Shown piece by piece: positions 8 to 18,908 of a DNA stretch of 19,137 nt. Where the stretch lies: positions 1 to 19,137 of the forward strand of contig JAGUXE010000414.1 of assembly GCA_020061995.1 (NCBI GenBank), written 5' to 3'. Under the pieces are notes generated by a model. It did no database searches. It saw only the letters and a program-made list of their open reading frames with translations, and was not told the origin of the DNA. This DNA comes from Ignavibacteriales bacterium (GTDB lineage Bacteria > Bacteroidota > Ignavibacteria > Ignavibacteriales > Ignavibacteriaceae). The translations under genes and the position numbers were made by a program. Positions within the stretch are counted from its first letter, which is position 1; the number at the start of each line of letters is the position of its first letter.

Positions 8-646
8 TTAGTTAATTACCCATCTTATGACTTCAAAAACTTCAGCATAAACTGACCCTATCTGAGTTCCTCTAGTTATTGCAAGACTTTTGATAAAGCT
101 TTCTGAAGCGTAATGCCTGGCTTTCTGTGAATTATAACAATCCAAGGCATTTACTTTTTTCATAAGTTCTTGCTCACCAAATGTAATAAAACAATTGTTC
201 GTAAAAGTGATGTTATTCCAAGGCAATTCATAGCATAATATTGATGTTTTTTTAAATGCTCTTAACCCTTCATGTGCAACAGTTGTATGGTCTTGGTGAA
301 GATCATTTAATGATGGCATTAGCACGAGATCTGGCTGTAATTCTTTATTCAAGCTTACTAAATCCTCGAGAATCTCTTGCCTGTGGTGGGCGAAGTGTCT
401 AACTCTATATCTAAAAAGCAATAAATTCTCTGGCGGAATACCAAGAACCTTAGTGGCTGCTTTAACCTCCGATTCCAAAATGTTTTTCGGATAGGGAGGG
501 GGCACTGATTCCTCTGCAAGCGAAAATGCTGCATAATATACAGATTTACCTTCGCTTATAAGTTTTGCTATTGTGGCTCCACAACCAAACTCCCCATCAT
601 CAGTATGAGGAGCTAAAACTAAAACATTAGCTGTTCTTTTAATCAT
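8..646 (-). CDS. PIG-L/LmbE family deacetylase
   Basis: This 212-residue protein is probably a zinc-dependent N-deacetylase acting on a sugar or sugar-lipid. The family signature is near the N-terminus: LAPHTDDGEFGCG, with H14, D16, D17 and E19 as the likely metal and catalytic residues. A second metal motif, HQDH, lies at 117-120. Length fits bacterial PIG-L proteins, and there is no signal peptide, so it is probably cytoplasmic. It is the last gene of the polysaccharide operon inside the window, 15 bases after the DUF354 gene. The ATG at 646 has no Shine-Dalgarno sequence, as is usual in Bacteroidota. The inferred role is removal of an N-acetyl group so another acyl group can be added, or editing of the polysaccharide. 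The family call is firm; the substrate is unknown. Confidence 0.88.
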   Translation of the reverse strand: MIKRTANVLVLAPHTDDGEFGCGATIAKLISEGKSVYYAAFSLAEESVPPPYPKNILESEVKAATKVLGIPPENLLLFRYRVRHFAHHRQEILEDLVSLNKELQPDLVLMPSLNDLHQDHTTVAHEGLRAFKKTSILCYELPWNNITFTNNCFITFGEQELMKKVNALDCYNSQKARHYASESFIKSLAITRGTQIGSVYAEVFEVIRWVIN

Positions 647-661
647 ATAATCAAGTTTATT

Positions 662-1741
662 TTACTTATTGAATCTTGCGGGAATAACTGTGGGATCACT
701 TTTAATAATTTTGTAACTCGAAGGATAATTTAGCACAAACCAAACCATCAAATCCGTAATATCCAAATTATTGAAAAGTTCTTTCGCTACATTATGTTTT
801 TTAACTGCTTTTTTGGGTGTTGCTAAATATTCAAGAGCTTTACTTATTGCTTCATCAGCATCTGTAATAATTGAGATTAAACCAGCCTCTATATATGGAT
901 CAAATACGCCTACTAGTTTTGCTGAGGTGGCAATATCAATTGCAGGTGTACCCATGATTGCAGCCTCAGTTGCCATTGTACCACTCTCTCCCCAAAACAT
1001 TTCTGCATAAAAAAGAGCATCGTGCATCTTTTCACAGGGGATATTAATCTGATATTTGTTTAATTGTGGGGGAAGTGCGGATTCAGAAGAAATAAAAATT
1101 CTGCAATGTTTGGAAAGTGTTTCTACCGCTCTTATTTTTTCACTTTCTTTCAATCCCTTATAACCAACGTCATGACTCGCCCCCCATGAAACAAACCTCA
1201 TAATGATATACTTCTCTTCTCTATTTATTCCTAACATATCATATACAGTGATATCAGGTTTGAAATAAGCTGGATGTAAATATGCTAAATCCATTGAACC
1301 ATTAAATCTAAGATGTTTTCTTCCGAAATTTTTCCTAAAATTATTTGGAGTAAATATAACATTGGCAAAAGGAACATAAAGCAGTTGTTCGAGTGATGCG
1401 TGTTCTGTATCGTCAAAAACAATATGCGGTTTCATTAATATAAAAGAGGCTAACGAAGCATAAGTGGATCCAAAACTAAGAAAAATATCAGGTTTGAATT
1501 TGAAAGCATGCTTTGTTACCCAATATGTGCCCAAAAAAATATAAAAAAGTTTACCAATCAAGCCTCTACCACCCCTACCTCTAGTTTCAAATTCAATATT
1601 GTATTTTTTAAGCAGCTCAAAAATTAATGACCTGTTTCTAGCTACAACCAATATTTTGTTACCACTGGACTCAGAAATCCGAATAAAATTTCTGAAATAA
1701 TGCACATGTGCAGGATGACCAAGGTCTAGTAAAATTTTCAT
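662..1741 (-). CDS. DUF354 family protein, GT-B-like fold
   Basis: This 359-residue protein starts MKILLDLGHPAHVHYFRN, the typical opening of the DUF354 family. DUF354 resembles the GT-B fold of UDP-GlcNAc 2-epimerases and glycosyltransferases. Other visible marks are a DDTEHA motif near 110-115 and a glycine-rich WGESGTMATEAAIMGTP stretch in the C-terminal half, where GT-B enzymes bind the nucleotide sugar. It starts 4 bases after the amidotransferase stop and sits 15 bases before the PIG-L gene. Members occur in polysaccharide loci, but I know of no settled reaction. Since no ordinary WbpI 2-epimerase is in this window, it could act as an epimerase or a transferase; this is only inference. 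Confidence 0.82.
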   Translation of the reverse strand: MKILLDLGHPAHVHYFRNFIRISESSGNKILVVARNRSLIFELLKKYNIEFETRGRGGRGLIGKLFYIFLGTYWVTKHAFKFKPDIFLSFGSTYASLASFILMKPHIVFDDTEHASLEQLLYVPFANVIFTPNNFRKNFGRKHLRFNGSMDLAYLHPAYFKPDITVYDMLGINREEKYIIMRFVSWGASHDVGYKGLKESEKIRAVETLSKHCRIFISSESALPPQLNKYQINIPCEKMHDALFYAEMFWGESGTMATEAAIMGTPAIDIATSAKLVGVFDPYIEAGLISIITDADEAISKALEYLATPKKAVKKHNVAKELFNNLDITDLMVWFVLNYPSSYKIIKSDPTVIPARFNK

Positions 1742-1745
1742 TTTA

Positions 1746-2897
1746 TTACCTGTTCTGTTTTTCTAACATAATAGTTGGCATTGCTGGATAAAGATACTTC
1801 ATTATTGAAGATACCGAATTGGAGTAGCGTTCAATCAATGGCATATATGACGGATAATCCCAATAGTAATGGTTGGGTGATGCCCAAATATTAGCAAATG
1901 AGGTTTCATTCATGTCAAGCTTCTTTAGAACATAATCTTTATCACGCTCCATTTGATCAGGGTCATATGGTGGTTTATTGATCAGATTTAGTGCATATTC
2001 ACGTTCAATTTCACCACTCAAAATTTGCGCAGAAAGTGTAATCAACCTTTTATCAATACCAAATTTTTTAGGTAACCAATAGGAAATTGCGAACTTTGTA
2101 AAAATGTTCTCGTGATGATGACCACCATAATATTCCCATCCATAATTTTGTTTTAGAAAATCCTGTGCTGCTTGTTTTTGATAATTAATACTATTAAATG
2201 GTCTGTAAATTTTAATTTTCTTTATACCAGCTGCTATAGAAAGATTTAAAACGCCTTGGATCGGGTATGATTTAAGCTTTACTTTCTCGAATGTATTAAT
2301 TACATGTAGCAATTGTTTGGAATCTGTATATGTCCATTCACTTGGTTGTTTACCTTCTGACCTAAAATCGCTGCCACTTAATATGGCTTTTATTTTTTCG
2401 CGTTCAGCAATTTTAAACAGAACAGCTTTGATCGCATGATCGGTTGGTCCATCAATCCAAGGTAAACCTGCCTTCATGTATGCTCTCAGAACAGATTTCA
2501 CCTCTTCATAATCTATTACATAAGTCTCTAAGTCAATGTCTAATGCTTTCGTAACACGTTTGATGTTTTGTACTGCTATTTCAGAGTTCCATCCATTGTC
2601 GAGATTAACCGCTAAAGGTCTTAGCCCAAACTTGTTCTTGGCTAAATGTAGTAAGAAGCAACTATCTGTGCCTCCACTAACTCCGATAATACAATCATAT
2701 CTTTTACCTTTATTCCGTTTCTTAATTTGATTTACTATTGTTTCCCAGTATTTTTCACCTTTCTCACCGCGTGGGTAAGAATCACAGAGGTTGTCAAACA
2801 TTTTTGCATAATTTGACACTCCATATTCATCAAAATAAATTCCTGGCACCGAAGTATCCCAAATTCCCCTTGAACATCTTCTAGGCTCATTATTCAT
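1746..2897 (-). CDS. N-acetyl sugar amidotransferase (WbpG/WbuX family), degenerate zinc knuckle
   Basis: This 383-residue enzyme belongs to the ATP-pyrophosphatase family that makes acetamidino sugars from N-acetyl sugars, using ammonia from HisH/HisF partners. The PP-loop SGGTDS is at 74-79, followed by the family motif NLDNGWNSE. The N-terminus should hold two CxxC pairs. Here only C8 remains: the other three positions are G11, S28 and A31, as seen by aligning with the paralogue at 6717-7841, which keeps all four cysteines. The rest looks intact, so this is a variant rather than an obvious pseudogene. It follows hisF by 11 bases and precedes the DUF354 gene by 4. It is probably the partner of the adjacent HisH/HisF pair. 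Confidence 0.88.
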   Translation of the reverse strand: MNNEPRRCSRGIWDTSVPGIYFDEYGVSNYAKMFDNLCDSYPRGEKGEKYWETIVNQIKKRNKGKRYDCIIGVSGGTDSCFLLHLAKNKFGLRPLAVNLDNGWNSEIAVQNIKRVTKALDIDLETYVIDYEEVKSVLRAYMKAGLPWIDGPTDHAIKAVLFKIAEREKIKAILSGSDFRSEGKQPSEWTYTDSKQLLHVINTFEKVKLKSYPIQGVLNLSIAAGIKKIKIYRPFNSINYQKQAAQDFLKQNYGWEYYGGHHHENIFTKFAISYWLPKKFGIDKRLITLSAQILSGEIEREYALNLINKPPYDPDQMERDKDYVLKKLDMNETSFANIWASPNHYYWDYPSYMPLIERYSNSVSSIMKYLYPAMPTIMLEKQNR

Positions 2898-2908
2898 ATT
2901 ATATATTT

Positions 2909-3667
2909 TTAAGAGAATATCTTAATGGCTTCTGTTTTTTCAGGATAATTAATCAATATACCATTACGTGCTCCATGGTATACAAAGATTGATCCTGCGG
3001 CCATAGCATGTGCACCATTATCAAATGCTAGTTTCATATCATGTAATTTTCCTGCACCTCCACATGCGATAATAGGTATAGAAACAGCTGATGATACAGA
3101 TTTAATCAATTCAAGGTCATATCCATTCATGCAGCCATCCCGCTCAATACTATTTAACATAATTTCACCTGCTCCAAGCCCCTCAGCTTTTATTGCAGCC
3201 TCAACAGGATTCATTTTAGTATTGATTTTTCCGTTCAAAACATAAGTGCTCATTCTACCAAAAAAATTCTTATTAACATCAAGTGATACAACTACACTTT
3301 GATTTCCTAATAATTTAGCTGTTTCATAAATTACTGCTGGGTTGTTAAAGAAAGTATTATTGAATGTAACTTTTTCAGCCCCTGCATTCACTAAATCAGC
3401 AGCTTGTCCAACACTTACGATACCGCCACCAACACCGAAAGGCATAAACGCCTCTGATCCTATTTTCTTTACAAGCTCGACTGAAATAGTTCTCTTTTCT
3501 CGCGACGCATCAATATCAAGAAATACTAACTCGTCAGCTTTTAAGTCATTGAATATTTTGACTGCATTTATTGGATCTCCAATATATCTTGGATTGTCAA
3601 ATTTTTTTGTTTTTACTAGACCTTTTCCTTTTAGTAACAAAACAGGTATTATTCTCGGTAGAAACAT
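2909..3667 (-). CDS. hisF: HisF-like acetamidino-modification protein (AglZ/HisF2/WbuZ type)
   Basis: This 252-residue TIM-barrel protein resembles the cyclase subunit of imidazole glycerol phosphate synthase but belongs to the branch in surface-sugar amidation clusters. The start MFLPRIIPVLLLKGKGLVKT has leucine at position 11, where true HisF has its catalytic Asp11. The second key aspartate is kept (SLDVN, D130). Phosphate-binding loops remain (GVGGG near 79-82, ACGGAG later). In the known model it receives ammonia from HisH through the barrel and passes it to the amidotransferase. Its first 19 bases overlap the end of hisH, which suggests coupled translation and a fixed stoichiometry. No other histidine genes are nearby. 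Confidence 0.9.
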   Translation of the reverse strand: MFLPRIIPVLLLKGKGLVKTKKFDNPRYIGDPINAVKIFNDLKADELVFLDIDASREKRTISVELVKKIGSEAFMPFGVGGGIVSVGQAADLVNAGAEKVTFNNTFFNNPAVIYETAKLLGNQSVVVSLDVNKNFFGRMSTYVLNGKINTKMNPVEAAIKAEGLGAGEIMLNSIERDGCMNGYDLELIKSVSSAVSIPIIACGGAGKLHDMKLAFDNGAHAMAAGSIFVYHGARNGILINYPEKTEAIKIFS

Positions 3668-4278
3668 GCGGATATATTGCTAAAATTACTTAATAGTTTT
3701 AAACCAGCTTCATGACTTTTTTCAGGATGAAATTGACAACCAAAAATATTTTCATGATTAAAAGAGGAAACGAAAGAATTACCATAGGTTGTTCGAGAGG
3801 CGACATCTATTTCGTTGTCACAAACTACATAATAGGAATGAACAAAATAGAATAATTCTTGAGGAGATATTCCTTTAAATAAAGGAGCATTGCTCATAAT
3901 TTCAAGACTATTCCAACCCATATGAGGAATATGAAACAAATCAGATTTAAGCTTAAATTTAATAGTATTTGCTGAAATTAAACCTAACCCATTAACTCCG
4001 CCTTCTTCACTATAATCTGTAAGTAGCTGCATTCCCAAGCAAATTCCTAAAATTGGCATTTTTCGCTCGACAACAAGCTCAGTTATCGTTTCATCCAAGC
4101 CGTCTTCTTGTAAATTTTTCATTGCCGTTTCAAAATGACCAACACCAGGAAGTAGCAAACCTGCCGCCTTTTCTAAAACCTTTAATTTATTTGAAACCAA
4201 TGTGGGAATTCTCAGCCTATCAAATGCCTTTTTAACGGAACCGATGTTTCCCATCTTATAATCTATGATCGCTATCAT
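3649..4278 (-). CDS. hisH: HisH-type glutamine amidotransferase subunit
   Basis: This 209-residue class I glutaminase releases ammonia from glutamine. The catalytic triad is visible: nucleophile C80 in GICLGMQLL, and H184 and E186 in CQFHPEKSHE. The N-terminus IAIIDYKMGNIGSVKKAF is typical of HisH. Beside hisF and a WbpG-type gene, it most likely supplies ammonia for acetamidino formation on a sugar, not for histidine synthesis. The ATG at 4278 overlaps the stop of the upstream glycosyltransferase by four bases (ATGA), and the 3' end overlaps hisF by 19 bases. It is the only glutaminase in the window, although two amidotransferases are present. Confidence 0.93.
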   Translation of the reverse strand: MIAIIDYKMGNIGSVKKAFDRLRIPTLVSNKLKVLEKAAGLLLPGVGHFETAMKNLQEDGLDETITELVVERKMPILGICLGMQLLTDYSEEGGVNGLGLISANTIKFKLKSDLFHIPHMGWNSLEIMSNAPLFKGISPQELFYFVHSYYVVCDNEIDVASRTTYGNSFVSSFNHENIFGCQFHPEKSHEAGLKLLSNFSNISACFYRE

Positions 4279-5414
4279 TTGTTTAATAATTCTTTAACGA
4301 TATATAACATCTGTTCATTATTGTAATGTGAAGAAAGATATTTGGCATGTAAATCGCACTGATTCTTCATAAGATCAATGTCCTTTGAGGTTAATTTGTT
4401 CAGTTCTTGTGCTAATGAGTTAATACTAAATTCCTGTGAAAAAACTCCAATACCATACTTTTGAATATACCTTTTTTGCTCTATGCTTGGTCCTGAAGCA
4501 ATTGGTATTCTTCCTTGAATACTTTCGAAAAATTTATTAGATAGTGCATATAAATAGTTTGCCTTGAACGGTTCGAAATAAATTACCTCCATATCAAATT
4601 CATTCAATTTATTAGGAATATCTTTAATAGCCACTGGATCAATAAATATTATAGGTAGTCCTAGTGATAATTGCTTTAATTTACTAACATATTTTTTTTC
4701 AAATCGATTATTTTCAACAAGCATGAAATACAGATGAAATCTACTGTCGAGCAGCTTAATTAATTCGATGAGGTTTTCAAGTTTTCTGGAGGAGCTAGCA
4801 ATGCCATGATGAATAAGATTAATCACATCATCCTTGGTTTGTTTGCAAGTTATGTCATAATAGTCTGTAGCATTTGTTATTGTAATGGTTCTAACTGAGT
4901 AATCTTTATTGTAGAGCTCACCGATACCATCGCAAACAACAAACATCTTATCAACATGTCTAATATACCTATCATGCAGGTATAGAATGTATGGTTTAAA
5001 GAGTAAACGCCAATAGGCCTTTTCAATATATTCATCTAATGCATACTCATGTGCGTCAAGAACTATTTTAACATTATGATTTACTTTTGATTTGTACTTA
5101 TATGCTAATGGTAGATTTGCATCTAACTCATGAGCTATGATAATATCAAAATTGAGCTTTGAAAGCGTGTTGTATAACTTTTTGTTACTGGAATTCCAAT
5201 AATATTTATTATACATTCGAAGCGCTAGAAAAATGAGACGAAATAATCTGACAACAAAACTGAGCTTCCTTCTTATAATAAAGCTATGCTCAAATCCAGA
5301 CTGTACTGAACCAACCGCTGTGACATGGTAGTTTAGCGAAAACAGTTTTATCTGTCTATACTCTCGTGATGATCTTTTAAGATCAACATTTGATAATATT
5401 AATATATTTTCCAT
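4275..5414 (-). CDS. Glycosyltransferase, GT-B fold (copy 2)
   Basis: This 379-residue protein is probably a cytoplasmic or membrane-peripheral glycosyltransferase of the GT4-like group. It begins MENILILSNVDLKRSSREYRQ. An N-terminal Rossmann-like half contains IIIAHELDANLPLAY and VLDAHEYALDEY. The C-terminal half starts near the IHHGIASSSRKLE motif and ends with LSNKFFESIQGRIPIASGP, where the donor nucleotide sugar would bind. Both motifs recur in the gene at 7862-8983 (VHHGIASTSRQLE; LGNKFFQFIQARLALAMGP), so the two are paralogues. It lies 5 bases after a CapK gene and overlaps hisH by 4 bases. Donor and acceptor cannot be read from the sequence. Confidence 0.82.
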   Translation of the reverse strand: MENILILSNVDLKRSSREYRQIKLFSLNYHVTAVGSVQSGFEHSFIIRRKLSFVVRLFRLIFLALRMYNKYYWNSSNKKLYNTLSKLNFDIIIAHELDANLPLAYKYKSKVNHNVKIVLDAHEYALDEYIEKAYWRLLFKPYILYLHDRYIRHVDKMFVVCDGIGELYNKDYSVRTITITNATDYYDITCKQTKDDVINLIHHGIASSSRKLENLIELIKLLDSRFHLYFMLVENNRFEKKYVSKLKQLSLGLPIIFIDPVAIKDIPNKLNEFDMEVIYFEPFKANYLYALSNKFFESIQGRIPIASGPSIEQKRYIQKYGIGVFSQEFSINSLAQELNKLTSKDIDLMKNQCDLHAKYLSSHYNNEQMLYIVKELLNK

Positions 5415-5419
5415 TTGTT

Positions 5420-6724
5420 TTAGGTTAGAAAAAAATCTCTTTTTCCATTATTAAGCTCTGAAAATGTTTCCTTGTATACGATTTCAATATTGGCGTCTGT
5501 CCCTGCATGTTTTTGAAAAGTATTTCGAATGAGATCTTCTTCAATTTGAGTGTAGTTTATCCCTTTCTTTATCTCAATTAGGATGTGCATTGCTTTAACC
5601 TTTTTTATGCGGTAAGCGACAACATTCAAATCCTTAAAAAGAACAGTAAATCCTGGTCCGGTTAAAACGTTGCCATTCTCTAACTTAATGACATCTAATG
5701 ATCTACCCAATACTTTTTTGAACCATTGACCATTATAGGTACTTCCACCTCTTTGTAGATTTTCAACTTCATCGCCAACTTCGTAATTTATTAGCGGGCA
5801 AGCATAATTAAGAAGATCAGTAGCTAGCACTTGAGTAATTCCGTTGTTATGCTCGTTGCTATCAGTAATCAGACTGTTATATCCGACTTTAAAAAGACCG
5901 TCATTATGCTTAAAGGCCGTAACCCCTCCATCTAGTGCCCCATACTCATCAATTATATGACATCCAAAAGCTTTCTTAATTGTATCATAATAATTAGATG
6001 TTAGCATTTCTGAAGTTGTAAATACTGCAGTTAAGTCAAGTCTAATATCATTGTCAAGTGCATATTTACCAATTAGATACAATGAACTGGCATATCCATA
6101 GATGAATTTAATCTTTTGTTCCTTAATAAAATCTATGTGTTCACGAATTGTTTGTTCATTTAGATTTATTCCACTAATAGGAACTTTGCCTATTAGCCAA
6201 TAATAAACCCTGTGTTTTAGCTTTAAAGATGAGCCACCTGGCAGTAATGATTTACTACCTACAGTAACGAATTTGTCGCCAAAATTGTATCCAGCTTTTA
6301 TCCTGTTGAAGAACGTGTTGGCTGTTATATAGGAGTATGAATTATAATCTAATGGGAACCTTAGCGGATTTCCAGTGGAACCCCCAGTAGATGAAATAAA
6401 AAAATTTCCCTTGAAGCTTTTTGTTAGATCGAATCTATTGTTTAAATTTATTATGTCTGATTTTCCTATTGTAGGAAGACAATTTAAATCTTCAATACTT
6501 TTTATCGCAGAAATATTAATATTTTTTTCCTCCAAAAAAAATCTGTATATTCCATTTTCATTGTAGTGATACGTAAATAGTTTTTTAAACAAAAAGTCTT
6601 GCCAATCAAGAACTTTCTCAAATGTCCAGTTTTCTTGACTTTTGATTACATCTTGATATTTCGAAACTCGAGTACCAGTGAAATACTCAAGAGCAATGAA
6701 CAAAACACTTTTGATATTAGTCAT
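5420..6724 (-). CDS. CapK-like adenylate-forming enzyme (copy 2)
   Basis: This 434-residue protein is a CapK/phenylacetate-CoA-ligase-like member of the adenylate-forming superfamily. Visible motifs in order are the phosphate-binding loop SSTGGSTGNPLRF (111-123), YGALDGG (261-267), YEVGD (314-318), the hinge LGRSLD (339-344) and a C-terminal NGKRDF whose K428 may be the catalytic lysine. The acidic residue after the YG motif is Asp where related enzymes usually have Glu. CapK proteins occur in capsule and O-antigen loci and presumably activate a carboxylate as an acyl-AMP; the acid is unknown. It overlaps the upstream amidotransferase by 8 bases. It is paralogous to the gene at 8984-10324, sharing KFIYGYAS and NGN(V/I)LTGPGFTVLF. 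Confidence 0.83.
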   Translation of the reverse strand: MTNIKSVLFIALEYFTGTRVSKYQDVIKSQENWTFEKVLDWQDFLFKKLFTYHYNENGIYRFFLEEKNINISAIKSIEDLNCLPTIGKSDIINLNNRFDLTKSFKGNFFISSTGGSTGNPLRFPLDYNSYSYITANTFFNRIKAGYNFGDKFVTVGSKSLLPGGSSLKLKHRVYYWLIGKVPISGINLNEQTIREHIDFIKEQKIKFIYGYASSLYLIGKYALDNDIRLDLTAVFTTSEMLTSNYYDTIKKAFGCHIIDEYGALDGGVTAFKHNDGLFKVGYNSLITDSNEHNNGITQVLATDLLNYACPLINYEVGDEVENLQRGGSTYNGQWFKKVLGRSLDVIKLENGNVLTGPGFTVLFKDLNVVAYRIKKVKAMHILIEIKKGINYTQIEEDLIRNTFQKHAGTDANIEIVYKETFSELNNGKRDFFLT

Positions 6725-7841
6725 TCTTTTCGATTTTTATGACTTTTTTAATTGATTTTAGGAAGTTATTAAATTTTTGACCATTAGGGTAGGCCTCATG
6801 GGGAATTCCTTTTTGCGACATAATTCGATCAAATTCATTTTTATTTAGATCCCATTTTTTTATTACATATTCAACCAAATCCTTTTGCTCCTCTTCATTT
6901 AAAATTGGTTGCATCATTAACTCCAAAGCTTTATCTCTAGTCATTTGGCCCGAGCAGATCAAGTTAGAAAGGTGTGCTTTTCTTTTATCAATATTAAATT
7001 TTACAGGTAGATAGTAAGATTGGTAGAACTTTGTAAATACAGATTCAAAATGCTTTCCTCCATAATCTTTCCATCCGAGCTCAGAAGAAATTATTTTCTT
7101 GGCATCTTCCTTGTTATAATCAATATAGTTTAATATACAAATATTCTTATAGTAGTACTGTCTAAGTAATTTACCAATGAAACCGTATGTTGGGTAGGAA
7201 TTGATTGTTTTCTCGCCGAAAATCTTATGAATTGATAAAATATTCTTTTGATCCCATTTTGCGTAGGACCAATTATCGGGCATTACTGCTTCGGTTACAA
7301 TATTAAAACCATTTATGAAATATTTTATTCTTTCTTTTCTAGCTAGGTCAAGCATTATAGCGCTTATAGCATGGTCAGTCAACATTTCTAAATCAACGAC
7401 ACCGGCCTTAAAAAAGGATAGCTGTAGATCCTTAAACTCCTCCCAATCTATTACATGTGTATACAAATCGAACCTCAATTTTTCAACTGTATTATGTATA
7501 TTTCTAACTGCAGTTTCTGAGTTCCAACCGTTGTCAAGGTGTACGGCCAGCGGTCGAAGTCCATGCTTAGCCACGAGCCAAGCTACATAGGTACTATCAA
7601 CACCGCCACTAAGACCAATTATACAATTATACTTTCGATTTTTGCCATGGGTTTCAATTCTACTAATGATTTGCTGTAATACTTCATTTCTTTTAAGTTC
7701 ATCTTCTATAATATCATTTCTTACTATAGTTTGATAGTTATTACAGTAGTTACAAACACCCGTCAAATCAAAAGAAATATTGTCAATAGTCGAATCTAAA
7801 ATGCATTTTCTGCAGATTTGATATCCAATAACGTTATCCAT
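6717..7841 (-). CDS. N-acetyl sugar amidotransferase (WbpG/WbuX family), intact zinc knuckle
   Basis: This 374-residue enzyme is the canonical copy of the two amidotransferases. The N-terminus carries two CxxC pairs, CRKC (10-13) and CNYC (30-33), forming a probable zinc knuckle. The ATP-pyrophosphatase loop SGGVDS is at 78-83, and AVHLDNGWNSETAV follows. It probably converts an N-acetyl group of a sugar to an acetamidino group, using ammonia from a HisH/HisF pair. No such pair is directly next to it: the only one lies at 2909-4278, beyond a CapK and a glycosyltransferase gene. The start at 7841 is 20 bases after the glycosyltransferase stop, and the 3' end overlaps the next CapK gene by 8 bases. 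Confidence 0.91.
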   Translation of the reverse strand: MDNVIGYQICRKCILDSTIDNISFDLTGVCNYCNNYQTIVRNDIIEDELKRNEVLQQIISRIETHGKNRKYNCIIGLSGGVDSTYVAWLVAKHGLRPLAVHLDNGWNSETAVRNIHNTVEKLRFDLYTHVIDWEEFKDLQLSFFKAGVVDLEMLTDHAISAIMLDLARKERIKYFINGFNIVTEAVMPDNWSYAKWDQKNILSIHKIFGEKTINSYPTYGFIGKLLRQYYYKNICILNYIDYNKEDAKKIISSELGWKDYGGKHFESVFTKFYQSYYLPVKFNIDKRKAHLSNLICSGQMTRDKALELMMQPILNEEEQKDLVEYVIKKWDLNKNEFDRIMSQKGIPHEAYPNGQKFNNFLKSIKKVIKIEKND

Positions 7842-7861
7842 ACTTGGTTATTATTAATCTG

Positions 7862-8983
7862 TTAATTTATTTCTGTTATTAAATTTATTAGCTTTTGAGC
7901 GTTTTCCTTTGCTGACAATTCTTGAGAATGTAAATGAGCATTCAATTTGTAGTCCTTCAAACTTTCTATGGGTGTATTTAATATCAACTTAGCCATTGTT
8001 TCTGGTTCAAAATCATCACTTACTATACCTAAGTTGTATTCTTCTGTTATCCTTTTCATTTCAATAAGTGGACCCATAGCTAAAGCCAATCTGGCTTGTA
8101 TAAACTGAAAAAATTTATTACCTAGGCCAAAATGTAAGTTAAGATTAATAGGGGGTACAAGAGTCAGCCCTATATCAAATTGATTCAAATAAGGCACTAA
8201 ATTTTCAAATTCTACAGGGTCGAGAAAAAGTATATTCGAGTTTGCGGATGCTAATTTCTTTAAACGAATGATGTATTCGTTGCTTGATTTGTCCACTGAG
8301 ACAAGAATAAGATATAAATAGTAATTCTTTGGAAGATACTTCATCATATGAATCATTAGTTCGAGTTGTCTCGAGGTGCTGGCTATTCCGTGATGAACTA
8401 TTTTAATTTTATTAGGGTCAATATCAGATGGTTTAAGGTCAAAGTAATTTTCCATGTTTCGAATAATGAGGGATCTTTGCACTTTGAAGTTCTTTTTATA
8501 AAGTTCATCAATTCCATTTGATACTGTTAGTATCGCATGGCATTTAGGAATATATTCTTTACATATGTTATCAAGTAGCGGTTTATATAAAAGATTAAAG
8601 AGAAAACTATTCCCGTAATTCTCAGGAGAATACTCATGAGCATCGAGTATTATATTTTTGGCTTTCAAGGTGAAGGCCATAGGCAGATTAATAGCCTCAT
8701 GTACGATAATCAAATCGAATTCAAACTGCTTTAATTTATTCCTGAATTTCTTCCTAGAATTATCCCAGTAATATTGTTTATATGCATGAATTAGTAAATA
8801 TAGTAAACCCAATATTTTCTCATATAGTTTTCTTGAATAGCTTGGTATAAAGAGCTGTTCAGTTCCTACTTGTCTTTTACCGCATGTGTAGACTTCATGG
8901 TTATCCTTAAGCCAGTTAACCTGTCGATTTGGTCTAGCATCCTTGCTTAAATCCGTTTGAGTAAGAATAAGTATTCGCATCAT
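7862..8983 (-). CDS. Glycosyltransferase, GT-B fold (copy 1)
   Basis: This 373-residue protein is the paralogue of the transferase at 4275-5414. It begins MMRILILTQTDLSKDARPNRQ. Shared features include ILDAHEYSPENYG in the N-terminal half, VHHGIASTSRQLELM around the middle, and LGNKFFQFIQARLALAMGP in the C-terminal donor-binding half. There is no transmembrane segment long enough to be convincing. The ATG at 8983 follows the CapK stop codon with no gap; a second ATG directly after it is an equally good start. Family-level knowledge supports transfer of a sugar from a nucleotide donor to a lipid-linked acceptor on the cytoplasmic face. Which sugar is unknown, but pairing with CapK and the amidotransferase suggests a modified residue. 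Confidence 0.82.
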   Translation of the reverse strand: MMRILILTQTDLSKDARPNRQVNWLKDNHEVYTCGKRQVGTEQLFIPSYSRKLYEKILGLLYLLIHAYKQYYWDNSRKKFRNKLKQFEFDLIIVHEAINLPMAFTLKAKNIILDAHEYSPENYGNSFLFNLLYKPLLDNICKEYIPKCHAILTVSNGIDELYKKNFKVQRSLIIRNMENYFDLKPSDIDPNKIKIVHHGIASTSRQLELMIHMMKYLPKNYYLYLILVSVDKSSNEYIIRLKKLASANSNILFLDPVEFENLVPYLNQFDIGLTLVPPINLNLHFGLGNKFFQFIQARLALAMGPLIEMKRITEEYNLGIVSDDFEPETMAKLILNTPIESLKDYKLNAHLHSQELSAKENAQKLINLITEIN

Positions 8984-10324
8984 TTATTTGCTTAATGGTA
9001 TAAAGTACTTCAACTTTCCTGATTTTAATAACTCAAATTCCTTTACGTATTCCAGTTTTACAATTGTATCCTTGCCAGCATGCATATGTAATACTTCCAA
9101 AATTCTATTTTCATTATCTTCGTTATAGTTTTCATTAATTTTAAGGCGGCATTTCAAGGTGCATTCATTTTCTTGAACTAATTGATAACCATCAACATTA
9201 ACATTATGAAATAATACTGTAAATCCTGGTCCCGTCAAAATGTTACCATTTGCTAGTCTAATTATGTCTGAAGATCTTCCAACGACTTTACCTATCACTT
9301 GACCGTTATATGTACTACTATTATTCATAAGTTCAACACTGTCCCCTAGTTTATATCTTATAAATGGAAAAGCAAGGTTTAATAGATCTGTGCAAAGTAT
9401 CTCGCCAAATTTCTCTTCATTCTCGCTTTGTGAAACCTCGATATATGAATTGTAACCCACACAATAGTGATTTTTAATAGTCTCATAAGCAACAATCCCA
9501 CCATCTCTTGCACCATATCCATCCATAATATCACAATTAAAAGCACTTTTTATTGTGGTCCTATAATATTCAGTTAAAACTTCTGATGTCGGAAATACTG
9601 CTATCAAATTAATGTTTCTCTTTGTTTCAGCCGAGTGCTTCGCTAGCAAAAATATTGCAGAAGCATAGCCATAAATGAACTTTACTTTTTGTGCCTCAAT
9701 ATAATCCAAATAAGAATTAATTTGATCTTGTTTTAGGTTCATCGCATCTAATGGAATAAATCCTTTCAAATAAGCAGCAATTCTTTTTTTTGTTGACAAT
9801 CTTTTATTACTAACTCCTAAAGAAGCGGCCCCCAATACAATCATCTTTTCGCCATATCGATAATTAAACTTATTCTTATAGAATAAATCGGTTGCTACAA
9901 TGAAAGACTCAGAATCTAGCGATATTCTATATTTTAATGGGTCGCCAGATGAACCGCCTGAGGCAGTATTGTAAAACTTTAATTCCTTAATATTAGAAGG
10001 TGTAAAAGAATCAATGTTTTGAAGAATTTCAGATTTAGTGATTGTAGGAATATTCGATATGTCGTTTAGACCTTTAATATCAGAAGGTACAAGTCCAATC
10101 TTCTTAAAAAGCTTTCTATAATACAAAGTGTTATTATAAACATGAATAACTAATTTCTTTAAATTTTCGGATTGCCAAGTTTGAATATCGTCTGCTGACC
10201 ATTTACCCATTTTTTCAATTAAGCTAAGTGTCTGTAGAACGGATGTGTTGTTTTTACTTTCAGTCAATGAATATATCGGCAATCGAAATAGAGCATTTTT
10301 AAAATACTTATAGTTGTTAATCAT
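8984..10324 (-). CDS. CapK-like adenylate-forming enzyme (copy 1)
   Basis: This protein has 446 residues from the ATG at 10324. A GTG at 10333 would add three residues, but the ATG is preferred; it gives the same 8-base overlap with the upstream gene that is seen at 6717-6724. Counting from the GTG, motifs are the phosphate loop TASGGSSGDPLKY (123-135), YGARDGG (273-279), YKLGD (327-331), VGRSSD (351-356) and C-terminal SGKLKYF with K440. These match the CapK/PaaK-like branch of adenylate-forming enzymes, with Asp in place of the usual Glu after the YG motif. The likely chemistry is ATP-dependent activation of a carboxylic acid. It is the paralogue of the gene at 5420-6724. Confidence 0.83.
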   Translation of the reverse strand: MINNYKYFKNALFRLPIYSLTESKNNTSVLQTLSLIEKMGKWSADDIQTWQSENLKKLVIHVYNNTLYYRKLFKKIGLVPSDIKGLNDISNIPTITKSEILQNIDSFTPSNIKELKFYNTASGGSSGDPLKYRISLDSESFIVATDLFYKNKFNYRYGEKMIVLGAASLGVSNKRLSTKKRIAAYLKGFIPLDAMNLKQDQINSYLDYIEAQKVKFIYGYASAIFLLAKHSAETKRNINLIAVFPTSEVLTEYYRTTIKSAFNCDIMDGYGARDGGIVAYETIKNHYCVGYNSYIEVSQSENEEKFGEILCTDLLNLAFPFIRYKLGDSVELMNNSSTYNGQVIGKVVGRSSDIIRLANGNILTGPGFTVLFHNVNVDGYQLVQENECTLKCRLKINENYNEDNENRILEVLHMHAGKDTIVKLEYVKEFELLKSGKLKYFIPLSK

Positions 10325-11798
10325 TATTACCACTATTTAATGTGTCTTTTATAACTATTTCAAATAAAGAAATGACCATTGTAATTGTAAACCAAGAAGG
10401 TGCCAACGGAATAATGGCTGAATATGAAAACATAGTATAGGTTGTGCTATGATGAACTATTATTCCTAACAAAGATACAATCGGTATTAGAATGAGTTTC
10501 CTGTTTCTAACTGCCGGATTAACTGACTTGTAAATCCTCACGCTTCTTCCAATAAGATAGACTATTCCAATCCAAAACAATATATAGCCTATAAAACCAC
10601 TATTCAAAATCATATTATGATGTCCAATATGCCCATCATGATACTGCCAATATGTCTCAGAAAACCCATAGCCAAAGATTGGGTTTTCTTGAATTTTTGA
10701 CATTATTCTGGGCACTCGCACACTTAGACGTCCTAAAGTGCCATCAGCTGTTATATCTCCTTTCGCGAGTGCTTCGATCGTTAGAATTCTGTCAAATGAT
10801 CCATGAATTTGACGAGAAACAGTATCGAATGCGTTTAGGAATAGGTATAAAATGGCTATTGACAAAACACTCCAAACGCCAATGCTTATAGTTTTCAACA
10901 CCTCTCTTCTTACTAAAATCATGAAGACTATAAACATAGTCATAACCGCAAGTAAAACTCCTCTTGTTGCAGATAAAAATATTGAGAATATTACCAAAAA
11001 AACTAAGAAATAGTTATATTTCTCTTCGGTTGGTTTTTTATTATATATCATGAGTACAAGAACTCCAGTTAAAATCCATTCTAAAATATAAAATGAGTAT
11101 AGAGGTCTACTAACGGAAATATTAGCTCCATCTGCTAATAATTCATCTTCATAATTCAAAACGCCGCCGATTAGAGTGACCGTTCTAACATTAGTAAAAA
11201 GCTCAAACAACTGTATTCCTATAACAATAAAAATAAAAGGAAGCAATAACTTGAAGTGCTTGTTAAACTCATTGGTGTTGTTCATTAATTTAGGTATGGC
11301 ATACAACAAAAGAAAAGGTAGAGTACCCCTAAAACCTCTAAATAGCCTATTCAGTGAAACATCATATGCAAAAGTGACCATGAAAAGATATAGAATGATA
11401 AAGAACAAGCCTAGATAAAATGGTTTTAATACAAAATGATGCTTCCGCCCTACAATTAGTGCTTTGATAAAAGCAACAATAATCATTATTTCCGTATAAA
11501 ACAAGTTCCTGCCGCCTCCAAGTGGCAAACCATAATTTCCTAGATTACGCGAAATTTCAAATAAATGCATTATATAACCAGGAGAGTCAGAAATCATAAA
11601 GAAAAAAGCAAACCAAAAGTAATTGTCCTTTGAATTAAAAAAAATTACTATAAGGCTCAGAAGAAAGACATACGAAACAAAAAAAGGCGTGCCGTACACG
11701 ACAAAAATAGTCGTAAAATATAGAAAATATAACTTAAAATATTCAGATCTGCTGAATAAAACACGACTAATTCCAATACTTTTATTCGAATTCTCCAT
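10317..11798 (-). CDS. O-antigen polymerase/ligase family membrane protein (Wzy/WaaL-like)
   Basis: This integral membrane protein has 493 residues, with roughly 10-12 hydrophobic segments and a large periplasmic loop in the C-terminal half. The loop contains the charged stretch DGTLGRLSVRVPRIMSKI and GYGFSETYWQYHDGHIGHHN, followed by the HN-x-L-x-N-SGFIGY pattern of the Wzy_C/O-antigen ligase superfamily. Such proteins polymerise O-units or ligate them to an acceptor in the periplasm. Coming directly after the flippase, this one is more likely the polymerase, but sequence alone cannot decide. I use the ATG at 11798, which shares one base with the flippase stop codon; a TTG one codon upstream is unlikely. 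Confidence 0.8.
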   Translation of the reverse strand: MENSNKSIGISRVLFSRSEYFKLYFLYFTTIFVVYGTPFFVSYVFLLSLIVIFFNSKDNYFWFAFFFMISDSPGYIMHLFEISRNLGNYGLPLGGGRNLFYTEIMIIVAFIKALIVGRKHHFVLKPFYLGLFFIILYLFMVTFAYDVSLNRLFRGFRGTLPFLLLYAIPKLMNNTNEFNKHFKLLLPFIFIVIGIQLFELFTNVRTVTLIGGVLNYEDELLADGANISVSRPLYSFYILEWILTGVLVLMIYNKKPTEEKYNYFLVFLVIFSIFLSATRGVLLAVMTMFIVFMILVRREVLKTISIGVWSVLSIAILYLFLNAFDTVSRQIHGSFDRILTIEALAKGDITADGTLGRLSVRVPRIMSKIQENPIFGYGFSETYWQYHDGHIGHHNMILNSGFIGYILFWIGIVYLIGRSVRIYKSVNPAVRNRKLILIPIVSLLGIIVHHSTTYTMFSYSAIIPLAPSWFTITMVISLFEIVIKDTLNSGNND

Positions 11799-13324
11799 CA
11801 AACTTTTCTTATAAAAAAACTAACTAAAGTAACCTTTATAAGTGTATTTTCATTAAATAACCAGTCAATTTCTTCTTTACTAATGATTTTCAAAAAACGC
11901 CAAAGTATCAAATTTAACAAAATAGATCCAAATATCACAATAGAAATAACCAGGAACGAAGAATCCAAAAAGTGCAGTGTGGAAAAAACAAAAAGTCCGT
12001 TAAATAAAATAAGAGCTACAATATTTTTTATTGCATTTCTATCAAATATTTTACACTTACTAATGGACAAATATTTCTTTTGATAAAAACCAGCTATAAA
12101 GTAAGCAAGTATCAATGCAGCTATTTCAGCGATTATTATTACATTCAATGGATTACTATTGTTAAACAATAAATATATAATCACAGACCCTATTGCATAA
12201 AATGCATTGAATATTATCAATGTGCTAGGATAATTAGAAGCGCTAAAAAAAATCAATGATGGCAAAATACTGGCATTAAACAATAAGTGGAAGGAAATGA
12301 TTAAAACGCTCATAAGAGTAATCTTACTTGCTATGTCTGGTAGCCACAAATTAAAGAGAAAACTAAACGTACCTATCATTGCAAAAATGATCATAATACT
12401 AAGATATATAATTTTTTGTTCGGCTAATGTTACAATTTTCGCTATTGTGGCCAATGAGTCTGACCTCGCAATTATAGGAAATATCGGATAGATACCTTTG
12501 TTTAATAGAGAGAATAAGTATGATCTGATTCTCATTACAATTTCATAAAAACCAACATAATCTATTCCAAAATATTTTGATATCAGCACTTTAGTAAGTG
12601 GTTGCCCGATAATTGTTATTAATCCTGCAGAATAAATTTTTGTAGTAAAAGAAAACTGCTTTTTAAACGACATGGGTATTTTTGAATAAGCACCCGTTAA
12701 CTTAAAAGTACCCCATGTTTTGATGCTTGCTATCAATGTGCACACAAACCATACCAAGGTTGTTAGAAGGATTGCTAAACCAACATAATCAAGTGATTGT
12801 CTAAAGAATAGGACTATTATTATAAAGCTCCAATACATTACATTGTATAGTAGTCTTATGTAGTTAGACAAATATATTTTTTCTTGTGCATCAATAATAG
12901 CTTCAAACATCTGGCCAACTAGTAAAAGAGAATTGCTTATTATTAGAAAATAAAAAATTCCCTTTGATTCTTTCAGACTGGATTTTGGAACACCAAGTAT
13001 ATCAGTCATTATGGTTTCATGAAATAGGAAAAGTATTAGGGAGATAATTAAAGAGACAACACTAACAAATAGTAGTGATACTAGAATATCAACATTTGAC
13101 TCTAAGCTCTTTCCTTGTTTGGACAAAAACCGTTTTAATGTTGTATTTAGTCCAAAACTTGCAAAAATATTTGTGCTACCAATAACTGTTAGAAGTGAAA
13201 AGATCCCATACTTTTCAAATCCAAGTTTATTAATGAATACAGGTATAGTTACAAAAGTTAAGCCAGCAACTATTACAGTCTGGAGTATTCCGCTTAGTGA
13301 ATTTGCAAGGAAGGGATTTTTCAT
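11798..13324 (-). CDS. wzx: Wzx-like polysaccharide flippase
   Basis: This 508-residue protein has about 12-14 hydrophobic segments and no large soluble domain. The N-terminus, beginning MKNPFLANSLSGILQTVIV and followed by IPVFINKLGFEKYGIFSLL, is typical of the polysaccharide-transport branch of the MOP exporter superfamily. Basic residues after the second segment (KRFLSKQGK) suit a cytoplasmic loop. It would move the undecaprenyl-linked repeat unit across the inner membrane. It is the first gene of the AT-rich operon, after a 340-base gap, so a promoter may lie just upstream, though I see no clear consensus. Its stop codon overlaps the next ATG by one base. Confidence 0.87.
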   Translation of the reverse strand: MKNPFLANSLSGILQTVIVAGLTFVTIPVFINKLGFEKYGIFSLLTVIGSTNIFASFGLNTTLKRFLSKQGKSLESNVDILVSLLFVSVVSLIISLILFLFHETIMTDILGVPKSSLKESKGIFYFLIISNSLLLVGQMFEAIIDAQEKIYLSNYIRLLYNVMYWSFIIIVLFFRQSLDYVGLAILLTTLVWFVCTLIASIKTWGTFKLTGAYSKIPMSFKKQFSFTTKIYSAGLITIIGQPLTKVLISKYFGIDYVGFYEIVMRIRSYLFSLLNKGIYPIFPIIARSDSLATIAKIVTLAEQKIIYLSIMIIFAMIGTFSFLFNLWLPDIASKITLMSVLIISFHLLFNASILPSLIFFSASNYPSTLIIFNAFYAIGSVIIYLLFNNSNPLNVIIIAEIAALILAYFIAGFYQKKYLSISKCKIFDRNAIKNIVALILFNGLFVFSTLHFLDSSFLVISIVIFGSILLNLILWRFLKIISKEEIDWLFNENTLIKVTLVSFFIRKV

Positions 13325-15952: not shown

Positions 15953-16519
15953 TCAAATTTTCCTAACAATTCCCTCCTCCAAAACATACTCCTCTCCTGA
16001 TTCCGGACAAATAGCTTTTCCATCAACAAAATGGAGGCGTTGGCCGAATTCGCTCATCCAGCCTGTTTGTCGGGCGGGATTGCCAACGACAAGGGCGTAG
16101 TCGGGGACGGTTTTGGTGACAACGGCACCGGCACCGATGAAGGCAAACCTGCCGATATCGTGGCCACAGACGATGGTGGCGTTGGCTCCGATAGAGGCTC
16201 CTTGCTTTACCAGAGTTCGTGCATACTCGCTTTTGCGGTTGACAGCCGAGCGGGGATTGGTCACATTGGTAAAGACCATCGATGGCCCGAGAAAGACATC
16301 GTCTTCGCAGATCACACCGGTGTAGATACTGACGTTGTTCTGCACTTTTACATTTTTGCCAAGTACCACCTGTGGACTCACAACAACGTTTTGGCCGATG
16401 TTGCAGTTTTCACCTATCACACAGTTGGACATGATGTGGCTGAAGTGCCATATTTTGGTTCCTGCACCGATTTGGCAGTTATCATCAATGACGGTGGAGG
16501 AGTGAGCGAAGTAGTTCAT
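15953..16519 (-). CDS. wbpD: UDP-2-acetamido-3-amino-glucuronate N-acetyltransferase (WbpD/WlbB)
   Basis: This 188-residue left-handed beta-helix acetyltransferase would acetylate the 3-amino group made by WbpE, yielding UDP-2,3-diacetamido-2,3-dideoxy-glucuronate. Hexapeptide repeats run from about residue 12 to 150 ([38 protein letters not shown]). The FTNVTNPRS loop (83-91) with N85 matches the substrate-binding loop of WbpD/WlbB. The protein ends with a short extension containing CPESGEEY. The gene is GC-rich. It starts 142 bases after the dehydrogenase stop, across a repeat-rich gap, and ends 50 bases before wbpE. Confidence 0.94.
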
Positions 16520-16547: not shown

Positions 16548-16662
16548 TTCAAAGAGTAGAGCCAAGGCAGAAGTAAGAGTAGCCAAGTAAGAAGAGCCAG
16601 GGCTGAGTAGGAATTGTCAAGTAAGAAGGTGATTTGCTCTTTTACCTTTTTACCTGGCTCTT
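16548..16662. repeat. Degenerate repeat patch between tviB and wbpD
   Basis: The gap holds three copies of AAGTAAGA (16571-16578, 16585-16592, 16619-16626) mixed with AGCCAAG-like words. A 10-base inverted repeat, AAGAGCCAGG (16592-16601) and CCTGGCTCTT (16653-16662), has a 51-base loop, and its right arm touches the tviB stop codon. The words resemble the heptamers found inside tviB at 17745-17765. Confidence 0.6.
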
Positions 16663-17951: not shown

Positions 17952-17963
17952 TATTTAAAATTC

Positions 17964-18093
17964 GAAGATTTGAGGATTTGAGGATTTGAGGATTTTAGGA
18001 TTTGAGGATTTGACAATTTGAAGATTTGAAGATTTGAGGATTTGAAGATTTGAAGATTTGAAGATTTGAGGATTTGACATTTTGAAGATTGAG
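17964..18093. repeat. Octamer tandem array A
   Basis: Fifteen units of eight bases with consensus GATTTGAR run from 17967 to 18086 on the plus strand, with partial units at both ends. Most units end in G or A. The variant GATTTGAC is always followed by a unit starting AATTTGA or ATTTTGA. The array begins 12 bases upstream of the tviB start codon and ends 21 bases before the toxin stop. It has no spacers, so it is not a CRISPR. Confidence 0.95.
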
Positions 18094-18865: not shown

Positions 18866-18908
18866 GTTTGGAAGTAGACTGTAATAGCTGATTTTTAGCA
18901 TCTACTTA

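Follow-up and report, generated by a model that had tools for sequence, protein, structure and literature searches.

Gene content of the operon

The window analysed here, by which we mean the whole 19,137-nucleotide stretch from an Ignavibacteriales bacterium, contains one tight run of operon genes, all on the minus strand and transcribed from high to low coordinates, in the order Wzx-Wzy-CapK_a-GT_a-WbpG_a-CapK_b-GT_b-HisH-HisF-WbpG_b-DUF354-PIG-L. From CapK_a to PIG-L, neighbouring genes are separated by gaps of 0-20 bp or overlap by 4-19 bp. The features are listed below from high to low coordinates.

16662..17951, minus: WbpA/TviB-like UDP-GlcNAc 6-dehydrogenase (NDP-sugDHase, 402.3 bits, cut-off 189.8)
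15953..16519, minus: WbpD-like hexapeptide N-acetyltransferase (domain family)
14772..15902, minus: WbpE-like aminotransferase, DegT/DnrJ (domain family)
13665..14633, minus: WbpB-like sugar oxidoreductase (domain family)
11798..13324, minus: Wzx-like flippase (Polysacc_synt, 52.3 bits, cut-off 28.2)
10317..11801, minus: Wzy-like polymerase (Wzy_C, 40.2 bits, cut-off 31.7)
8984..10333, minus: CapK_a, PaaK-like adenylate-forming enzyme (PF27533 for P0001, ATP-site motifs, PaaK structure match)
7862..8983, minus: GT_a, GT4-type glycosyltransferase (Glyco_transf_4, 29.1 bits, cut-off 28.5)
6717..7841, minus: WbpG_a, N-acetyl sugar amidotransferase with four zinc cysteines (WbuX TIGR03573, 273.9 bits, cut-off 203.2)
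5420..6724, minus: CapK_b, paralogue of CapK_a (BLASTP pair, motifs)
4275..5414, minus: GT_b, paralogue of GT_a (Glyco_transf_4, 25.5 bits, under the cut-off of 28.5; BLASTP pair)
3649..4278, minus: HisH-type glutaminase (HisH, 229.7 bits, cut-off 105.4)
2909..3667, minus: HisF2/AglZ-type partner (329 bits, cut-off 310)
1746..2897, minus: WbpG_b, amidotransferase of a clade without three of the four zinc cysteines (WbuX, 242 bits)
662..1741, minus: DUF354, probable GT-B-fold transferase (102.1 bits)
8..646, minus: PIG-L family N-deacetylase (66.2 bits, cut-off 28.2)

CapK_a has 449 aa when read from a GTG start; its database copy, P0001, begins later and has 427 aa. The WbpA/B/D/E-like assignments are qualified ones, made by fit to domain families: the TviB score of the first protein (559) falls just under the cut-off of 592, and the NCBIfam equivalog cut-offs are unmet by the WbpB-, WbpD- and WbpE-like proteins. 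The WbpB-like gene is 69% identical to a gene in locus L268 and 61% to one in L269, both regions with GT_a-type glycosyltransferases, and the WbpD-like gene is 76% identical to its L268 counterpart. No Epimerase_2 match indicative of a WbpI-like 2-epimerase was found among the main genes of the window, and such a gene may sit outside it.

The original prediction recognised two sets of CapK, glycosyltransferase and amidotransferase genes in the same order, and the gene coordinates agree. The extent it gave for the locus is too narrow on both sides, omitting DUF354 and PIG-L, which go with WbpG_b, and upstream Wzx/Wzy and the WbpA/D/E/B-like genes. The P. aeruginosa O5-type wbp layout comprises UDP-diacetamido-uronic acid genes, WbpG with HisH and HisF2, two related GT4s and Wzx/Wzy. 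The window resembles it in gene types, but adds a zinc-less second WbpG, two CapK, DUF354 and PIG-L, and is without a WbpI-like gene.

Two kinds of amidotransferase beside one HisH-HisF pair

The available text of PMC10607449, our source for the role of WbpG in P. aeruginosa, gives the PP-loop SGGxDS and a zinc tetracysteine motif as hallmarks of WbpG/NASAT proteins. Both window proteins exceed the WbuX cut-off and keep the PP-loop, as SGGVDS and SGGTDS, a motif present in 67 of the 68 rows of our WbpG tree (68 of 116 WbpG-labelled ORFs, below 450 aa, with >200 bits, >300 aa and identical ones taken once; also reduced to 39 of the 68). The zinc motif is complete in WbpG_a (CCCC) and reads C-G-S-A in WbpG_b. 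WbpG_b belongs to a clade of nine rows, every one of which keeps only the first cysteine, and WbpG_a is placed in another clade; all four cysteines are kept in 46 of the 68 rows. Judged by sequence, WbpG_b is filed here as a zinc-less homologue, not as a canonical NASAT member. DUF354 lies within 5 kb of all eight clade members outside the window, versus 5 of 72 other WbpG (raw counts, kinship ignored); this count covers 80 WbpG outside the window, not 116, many nonulosonate-type WbpG falling under a GATase+WbpG-like label.

The disappearance of three zinc cysteines would fit a dead or regulatory WbpG_b that has lost its zinc site, with WbpG_a alone at work, but we consider this highly improbable: the PP-loop and all 36 columns invariant across 18 aligned WbpG are retained, identity to the WbpG of L218 reaches 67%, the same loss is common to the whole clade, HisF lies within 5 kb of seven of its eight outside members, and the WbpG_b type is the sole WbpG labelled in L132, L152, L177 and L230.

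HisF scores 329 bits against AglZ/HisF2 (NF038364), above the cut-off, and 201.7 against the histidine-pathway family TIGR00735, under its cut-off of 294.55. We take the catalytic residues of histidine-pathway HisF to be Asp11 and Asp130; opposite position 11 of T. maritima HisF the window protein has Leu in place of Asp, and it keeps the second Asp. HisH keeps the GICLGMQ and QFHPE stretches. On these features the HisF2/AglZ-type protein probably delivers ammonia, and the acetamidino chemistry foreseen for the locus is likely, given its WbpG, HisH and HisF2 type genes.

Locus L218 of genome G553 resembles this end of the operon in having, in one run, HisH-HisF-WbpG_b type (67%)-DUF354 (40%)-second WbpG-hexapeptide acetyltransferase-PIG-L (48%), but unlike the window it carries no labelled CapK or GT_a-type glycosyltransferase. 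In L219, some 94 kb distant along that contig, a GT_a-type glycosyltransferase (38%) directly precedes a WbpG_b type. It could be that a zinc-free WbpG_b subfamily, in a block with HisH, HisF and DUF354, takes as acceptor something else than the customary nucleotide sugar and is able to draw on the same HisH-HisF pair as a canonical WbpG (also in L151, L209 and L218), the CapK amide lying on the same residue as the amidine so that every residue bears both; we find this combination rather unlikely. Double decoration of one sugar has a precedent in the Methanococcus N-glycan, for which the available part of the review PMC2952790 describes loss of the acetamidino group on deletion of a WbpG homologue (cited there as unpublished) and a threonine on the same sugar, its enzyme unidentified in that review; that case, unlike the window, concerns an archaeal N-glycan and has no CapK link in the text.

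Origin of the repeated order

It had been proposed that a three-gene unit was duplicated and then diverged. In sequence, as that proposal held, each pair consists of genuine paralogues: in BLASTP, the CapK copies share 38% identity (417 aligned, E 4e-98), the glycosyltransferases 34% (378 aligned, E 5e-76) and the amidotransferases 37% (367 aligned, E 4e-77). Order alone is weak evidence, because three paralogue pairs would show the same order with a chance of 1/6 (3! orders). Trees of the three pairs contradict a joint divergence for WbpG and leave an old CapK and GT duplication unrejected. WbpG_a and WbpG_b lie in different well supported clades, and the AU test rejects joining WbpG_a to the nine-row clade of WbpG_b, with p-AU 0.021 (68 rows) and 0.0005 (39 rows). 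These values are preferred to that of the pair-only constraint (p 1e-61), which has the same flaw as the pair-only GT test given below.

For CapK (112 rows in all, made up of the thinned set of 200 listed proteins and 19 locus CapK; AU tests on 47 rows), the union including P0003 and P0004 has p-AU 0.255 and that excluding them 0.034, and in the free tree CapK_b groups with P0242/P0246 (90/86). In the GT tree (89 rows from 120 listed matches, thinned and length-filtered, plus locus GTs above 80 bits; reduced to 45), GT_b forms a long branch; p-AU is 0.40 for the union with P0121 included and 0.74 for GT_a+P0121+P0122+GT_b. GT_a and GT_b alone give p 1.1e-6, but this constraint forces the 97% allele P0121 outside. 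The CapK and GT trees are thus compatible with an old CapK-GT duplication, which they do not exclude, and do not prove a joint one.

As for recurrence, groupings of CapK, GT and amidotransferase do occur elsewhere, and the exact triplet of the same three families is absent from the regions read. The order of the second half is echoed in G066 (CapK-GT-HisH-HisF-WbpG-(acetyltransferase)-DUF354), where the CapK is more remote, the GT is a different one and a further gene is present; the GT profile at 1e-40 matched none of 164 genomes in the order of G066. Among the matches listed (the best 120 of 675, of 300 and of 124), the closest relatives of CapK_a and GT_a, alleles aside, seem to be on one contig, and CapK-GT linkage seems to recur, judging by contigs of matching length (21,951 and 26,221 bases). 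Members of the GT family and amidotransferase genes are interleaved in L219, L123, L160 and L268, and four of the five strongest GT-family genomes (G050, G080, G113 and G143, not G150) have a WbpI-like epimerase and/or WbpB-like gene, and also an AsnB-like amidotransferase gene, in the GT region.

CapK was found at E 1e-110 in one of 395 Bacteroidota genomes, G001, itself chosen for having CapK (each genome in the rows shown having at most four of its candidates scored), and in 5 of 44 genomes of G553's order, all distant (E ~1e-50 to 1e-55). A genome_contigs scan with a single sequence returned nothing; among the best 80 of 536 loci from an alignment scan, only three, from Bacteroidales, were close (36-37%), CapK identity in the others being 23-29%. 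Plasmid relatives came from 40 records, with identities of at most 29% among the 20 listed, and none were found in viral contigs. The WbuX genome sampling left out 13 new WbuX genomes, mostly high-scoring matches.

Tandem duplication of one CapK-GT-WbpG block, with divergence of both copies, later insertion of HisH-HisF and one decorated residue per copy, draws on the order occurring twice, on the similar identities of all three pairs, on GC3 being equally low in both halves (0.22-0.30) and on unions of the GT and CapK pairs that are not rejected. The WbpG rejections argue against it, among them that of WbpG_a+WbpG_b with the nearest relative from L218 (1e-49), as does the company kept by the WbpG_b clade, whose outside members have DUF354 (8/8) and HisF (7/8) within 5 kb but CapK in only two of eight cases. 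We hold this history to be improbable, and the WbpG trees reject tandem duplication of the full triplet. A mosaic without any duplication, its halves acquired separately and CapK, GT4 and WbpG being simply common neighbours in such loci, is a credible alternative that we entertain tentatively: CapK_a and CapK_b differ in their nearest relatives, their union without P0003 and P0004 is rejected, and the repeated order has its one chance in six. It sits less easily with the unrejected CapK union that includes those two proteins, and with the union of GT_a, P0121, P0122 and GT_b, which stands 9.5 log units above the free quick tree (p-AU 0.744). The trees suggest that the operon is a mosaic of differing origins with one odd amidotransferase, not one copied block; it may combine a possibly duplicated CapK-GT pair with two WbpG genes of separate subfamilies, and one of these WbpG would have arrived with its HisH-HisF-DUF354 block.

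CapK enzymes and the predicted pathway

CapK_a matches the PaaK, FlxY and DVU1553 families with every score below cut-off; for PaaK TIGR02155 (cut-off 646.3), CapK_a reaches 64.9 bits and CapK_b 22.8 bits. PaaK structures are matched by the CapK profile, and both copies keep GGSSG/GGSTG, YGA.DGG, GD, GR..D and a C-terminal Lys, which we take to be ATP-site motifs. Since adenylating motifs are present, CapK may work like PaaK. FemAB/GNAT-like transferases occur in 8 of 19 CapK loci versus 2 of 100 other WbuX regions (raw counts, kinship ignored, the 100 being somewhat inflated by overlaps such as L123/L124, L126/L127 and L160/L161). In the two non-CapK regions with FemAB, L152 and L230, a WbpG_b type is present too, and FemAB may thus track the WbpG_b block as well as CapK. 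Neither a FemAB-like gene (window ORFs of at least 100 aa, E 10; the window is seemingly part of a 31,144-base contig) nor an AsnB-like gene (E 1e-30) was found in the window, which leaves the CapK acceptor step there without a dedicated enzyme.

The CapK pair would adenylate a carboxylate for amide formation. This could be the carboxylate of a small acid, to be joined to an amine released by PIG-L deacetylation, or that at C6 of the uronic acid itself. The second option would yield a substituted uronamide, for which archaeal ManNAc3NAmA, bearing threonine at position 6, offers a comparison, and would put CapK in the place of the AsnB/WbpS-like enzymes of loci with the same GT family, to the exclusion of small-acid N-acylation. 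An AsnB-like gene directly adjoins a GT-family gene in L160, L266, L267 and L268 and shares a region with one in L123 and L269, that place is taken in the window by CapK, with no AsnB-like gene present, and a related bacterial pathway forms its uronamide by WbpS (available text of PMC7468200). However, AsnB-like genes accompany CapK in 5 of 19 CapK loci and 35 of 66 genome_contigs CapK loci (those of at least 12 kb among the best 80), versus 22 of 100 other WbuX regions, which argues against simple replacement, and both the FemAB-like genes near CapK and polysaccharide deacetylase matches in 22 of the 66 favour N-acylation. Because of the AsnB-like counts we lowered the uronamide option from a tentative to a doubtful one. 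The GATase+WbpG-like profile, built on proteins of 669-677 aa with a GATase domain, a WbpG-like part and no Asn_synthase domain, also labels 34 shorter WbpG-like proteins (<580 aa), and its occurrence in 2 of 19 CapK loci and 38 of 100 other WbuX regions is not an AsnB count.

With moderate confidence, at about an even chance, we read the locus as a Wzx/Wzy O-antigen or capsule operon of mosaic origin, combining UDP-diacetamido-glucuronic acid supply, paired GT4s, WbpG amidination, CapK amides and a DUF354 transferase. The WbpA, B, E and D-like enzymes would make UDP-2,3-diacetamido-glucuronic acid; GT_a and GT_b, as related GT4s, would each place one residue derived from the diamino-uronic acid; WbpG_a and WbpG_b would convert acetamido to acetamidino groups, the two differing in the residue or acceptor served and both fed with ammonia by the single HisH-HisF pair; and DUF354 would be a third transferase, tied to WbpG_b. 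We infer the reactions of CapK, DUF354 and WbpG_b, the residue served by each enzyme and the glycan from the gene content, motifs, clades and neighbourhoods observed.

Of the bacterial Wbp/Vim pathway of Porphyromonas and Tannerella, the available text of PMC7468200 relates that the WbpA/B/D/E product is de-N-acetylated and its amine re-decorated, with an optional uronamide. The window would follow a similar course but has no VimA/FemAB-like or AsnB/WbpS-like gene, has CapK and WbpG in addition, and carries a PIG-L deacetylase versus the CE4 type given there for VimE. A Sphingomonas exopolysaccharide locus, in whose genes transposon insertions change colony morphology, shares WbuX, HisF2- and HisH-family genes, GT4s, an aminotransferase, an acetyltransferase and an MviM dehydrogenase with the window; as differences, the available text lists one WbuX and names neither CapK nor phenylacetate (PMC11340318). 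Exosortase/PEP-CTERM exopolysaccharide loci likewise have CapK beside glycosyltransferases and deacetylases (NE2015 is tabulated as 'possible CapK protein' in the part seen of PMC1569441), but the 66 genome_contigs CapK loci scanned contain no labelled WbpG, HisH or HisF. On our best reading, the operon is known O-antigen chemistry in a new variation.

CapK-like enzymes occur widely in polysaccharide loci, and we found no paper on a CapK-like reaction in a glycan pathway in the open-licence literature searched for CapK and phenylacetate-CoA ligase. The tree result is a caution that gene order occurring twice should not be taken for the duplication of a module. The tie between the zinc-less WbpG clade and DUF354 gives both a functional context, and the position of CapK between a glycosyltransferase and WbpG, beside diamino-uronic acid genes, narrows its possible substrates and turns them into a testable question.

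Layout, composition and nearest relatives of the locus

The window holds a polysaccharide locus in which the recognised genes all lie on the minus strand, and the gene order confirmed the doubled set noted originally: CapK (a PaaK-like adenylate-forming enzyme), GT (a GT4-type glycosyltransferase) and WbpG (WbuX, an N-acetyl sugar amidotransferase), in the same order both times (_a, first set; _b, second set).

Gene order of the locus in the direction of transcription, and neighbouring features
First part, minus strand: WbpA/TviB-like dehydrogenase, WbpD-like acetyltransferase, WbpE-like aminotransferase, WbpB-like oxidoreductase, Wzx, Wzy
After Wzy, minus strand: CapK_a, GT_a, WbpG_a, CapK_b, GT_b, HisH, HisF, WbpG_b, DUF354, PIG-L
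14144-14199, 17953-18090 and 18737-18870: tandem repeats of the 8-base unit GATTTGAG, also as 24-mers; intergenic save one array within the wbpB-like reading frame
18115-18510: PIN-domain VapC-like toxin gene upstream of wbpA, preceded by a small possible antitoxin frame

From CapK_a through PIG-L, genes overlap or are separated by at most 20 bp. Between Wzx and PIG-L the third-position GC is 0.22-0.30, against 0.58-0.62 in wbpA, wbpD and wbpB (0.34 in wbpE), so the serotype-specific part is unlike the sugar-nucleotide part in composition; the low value is common to both repeated halves.

CapK_b (99%) and GT_a (97%) have their best matches, and CapK_a (72%) its best non-self match, in proteins from one source that are all assigned a longest contig of 21,951 bases. 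These proteins therefore probably lie on one contig, which, judging by this equal size, is probably this operon as it occurs in a relative. (The database protein P0001 equals CapK_a except for the N-terminus, and its longest contig is given as 31,144 bases.) In this relative the differences in CapK_a are spread along the gene (40-residue blocks 0.60-0.82 identical) while the adjoining GT_a is 96-97% identical, a pattern that points to exchange of a stretch including CapK_a and perhaps wzy, with a likely border between CapK_a and GT_a, near position 8984. The next relatives by tree, the database proteins P0003 (CapK, 45%) and P0122 (GT, 50%), are both assigned a 26,221-base contig, which by equality of size they apparently share, so that the linkage of CapK_a and GT_a looks older than that divergence. 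Among the matches listed, no further CapK and GT of equal contig size that could fit one contig were seen by eye.

Descent of the two sets

BLASTP identity within the paralogue pairs is 38% for CapK, 34% for GT and 37% for WbpG, which, on sequence grounds, is the level of old paralogues. Given three pairs, the second set would match the order of the first with a chance of 1/6, so order alone carries little weight.

In the GT tree, GT_a groups with P0121 (97% identical) and P0122 with support of 99/97. Holding GT_b with GT_a and P0121 was not rejected (0.40), and with P0122 added to that union the likelihood was higher than the unconstrained quick search gave (0.74). In the CapK tree, CapK_a groups with P0002, P0003 and P0004 (100/100) and CapK_b with P0242 and P0246 (90/86); uniting CapK_a and P0002 with CapK_b and P0241 scored 0.034, and the CapK_a/CapK_b union with P0003 and P0004 added was not rejected (0.255).

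WbpG_b falls within a nine-row clade (SH-aLRT 100 in a 68-row tree; 100/100 in a careful 39-row tree), whose other members come from the comparison genomes G066, G192, G194, G377, G445, G553 (two) and G627, and WbpG_a stands in a separate eight-row clade (98/93 in the 39-row tree). Uniting WbpG_a with the nine-row clade was rejected in both the 68-row (0.021) and the 39-row (0.0005) sets. Duplication of a whole three-gene unit, as originally proposed, is thus not supported as stated: the trees argue against duplication of a block in the recent past and reject it for WbpG, but leave open an old duplication of CapK and GT.

Recurrence in other genomes and the zinc-less WbpG clade

At E 1e-40, WbuX genes occur in 54/395 Bacteroidota genomes and in 56/391 genomes of the class of G066, the two samples overlapping; 61 and 40 WbuX regions, respectively, were examined. 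CapK of the window type is rare, found at 1e-110 only in G001, the pre-chosen centre, among the 395 genomes, and at 1e-50 in 14/164 genomes of the order of G066, G066 included. Three regions hold both CapK and WbpG, their CapK being only 25-31% identical to those of the window.

Regions holding both CapK and WbpG (WbpG_b type, member of the nine-row clade)
L132: PGA_cap-CapK-GT4-HisH-HisF-WbpG_b type-acetyltransferase-DUF354-epimerase
L203: GT4-CapK-HisH-HisF-WbpG-FemAB-DUF354-DUF354
L209: CapK-PGA_cap-WbpG_b type-HisH-HisF-DUF354-epimerase-WbpG

The exact CapK-GT-WbpG triplet of the same three families was present in none of the regions read; L132 repeats the order of the window's second half. 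The exact arrangement of the window did not turn up in literature searches covering open-licence papers. Paired amidotransferases are not unique to the window, since WbpG_b-type and canonical WbpG genes occur within one region, with one HisH-HisF pair, in L151, L209 and L218, and L123 and L160 each carry two GT-family genes (relatives of GT_a and GT_b) and two WbpG genes, a true AsnB-like gene among them. PGA_cap (CapA-like) genes were seen in 6/19 CapK loci (L132, L203, L205, L209, L210, L212) and 1/100 other WbuX regions, and regions containing CapK or a GT-family gene also encode Por_Secre_tail (type IX secretion tail) proteins at L199:10741-12093 and L265:7812-8975.

The WbpG family is described as characterised by a zinc motif of four cysteines (tetracysteine) and by a PP-loop (PMC10607449). 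All four zinc cysteines are present in 46/68 window-type WbpG proteins; the nine clade members keep the first only, and 13 further proteins outside the clade have lost at least one (in L238 probably through a wrong start). Replacement by other residues outside the clade was seen in L119, L121, L165, L167, L171, L131, L179 and others. A DUF354 gene lies within 5 kb of all clade members outside the window (8/8) and of 5/72 other WbpG genes (Fisher 4e-8, uncorrected for kinship), three of these five sharing a locus with a clade member. UDP-GlcNAc 2-epimerase and MurG are GT-B-fold enzymes, and since the DUF354 profile matches solved structures of both (E 0.0006 and 0.003, respectively), DUF354 is likely a transferase. 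Separately, a WbpG-like profile matched ten frames of 603-681 aa (L141, L177, L200, L206, two in L219, L226, L244, L254, L257), which are possible amidotransferases with their own glutaminase; the four run through Pfam (L200, L206, both of L219) matched GATase, one just below cut-offs, and lacked Asn_synthase.

A possible role for CapK

Both CapK proteins keep the adenylating motifs, and the CapK profile matches PaaK structures. FemAB/GNAT-like genes occur in 8/19 CapK loci against 2/100 other WbuX regions, and a WbpG_b-type gene is present in each of these two; for DUF354 the counts are 9/19 and 10/100. In a genome_contigs scan of 66 CapK loci, including four of those 19, polysaccharide deacetylase matched in 22 and FemAB in 10, some weakly, and WbpG, HisH and HisF in none.

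On a rival reading, the CapK enzymes might make a substituted uronamide in place of an AsnB-like enzyme, as an AsnB-like gene stands beside a GT-family gene in G050, G143, G080 and G243 and shares a region with one in G113 and G030, in the place that CapK takes in the window. Against this, CapK and AsnB-like genes occur together in 5/19 and 35/66 CapK loci, compared with 22/100 other WbuX regions. The window itself yielded no FemAB-like gene and no AsnB-like gene. One described pathway has WbpA/B/D/E, a deacetylase, a FemAB-like transferase and an AsnB-like amidotransferase building an amino-acid-bearing diamino-uronamide (PMC7468200), which supports CapK as the putative carboxylate-activating part of such decoration. 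The original idea that each module adds and decorates one residue is plausible.
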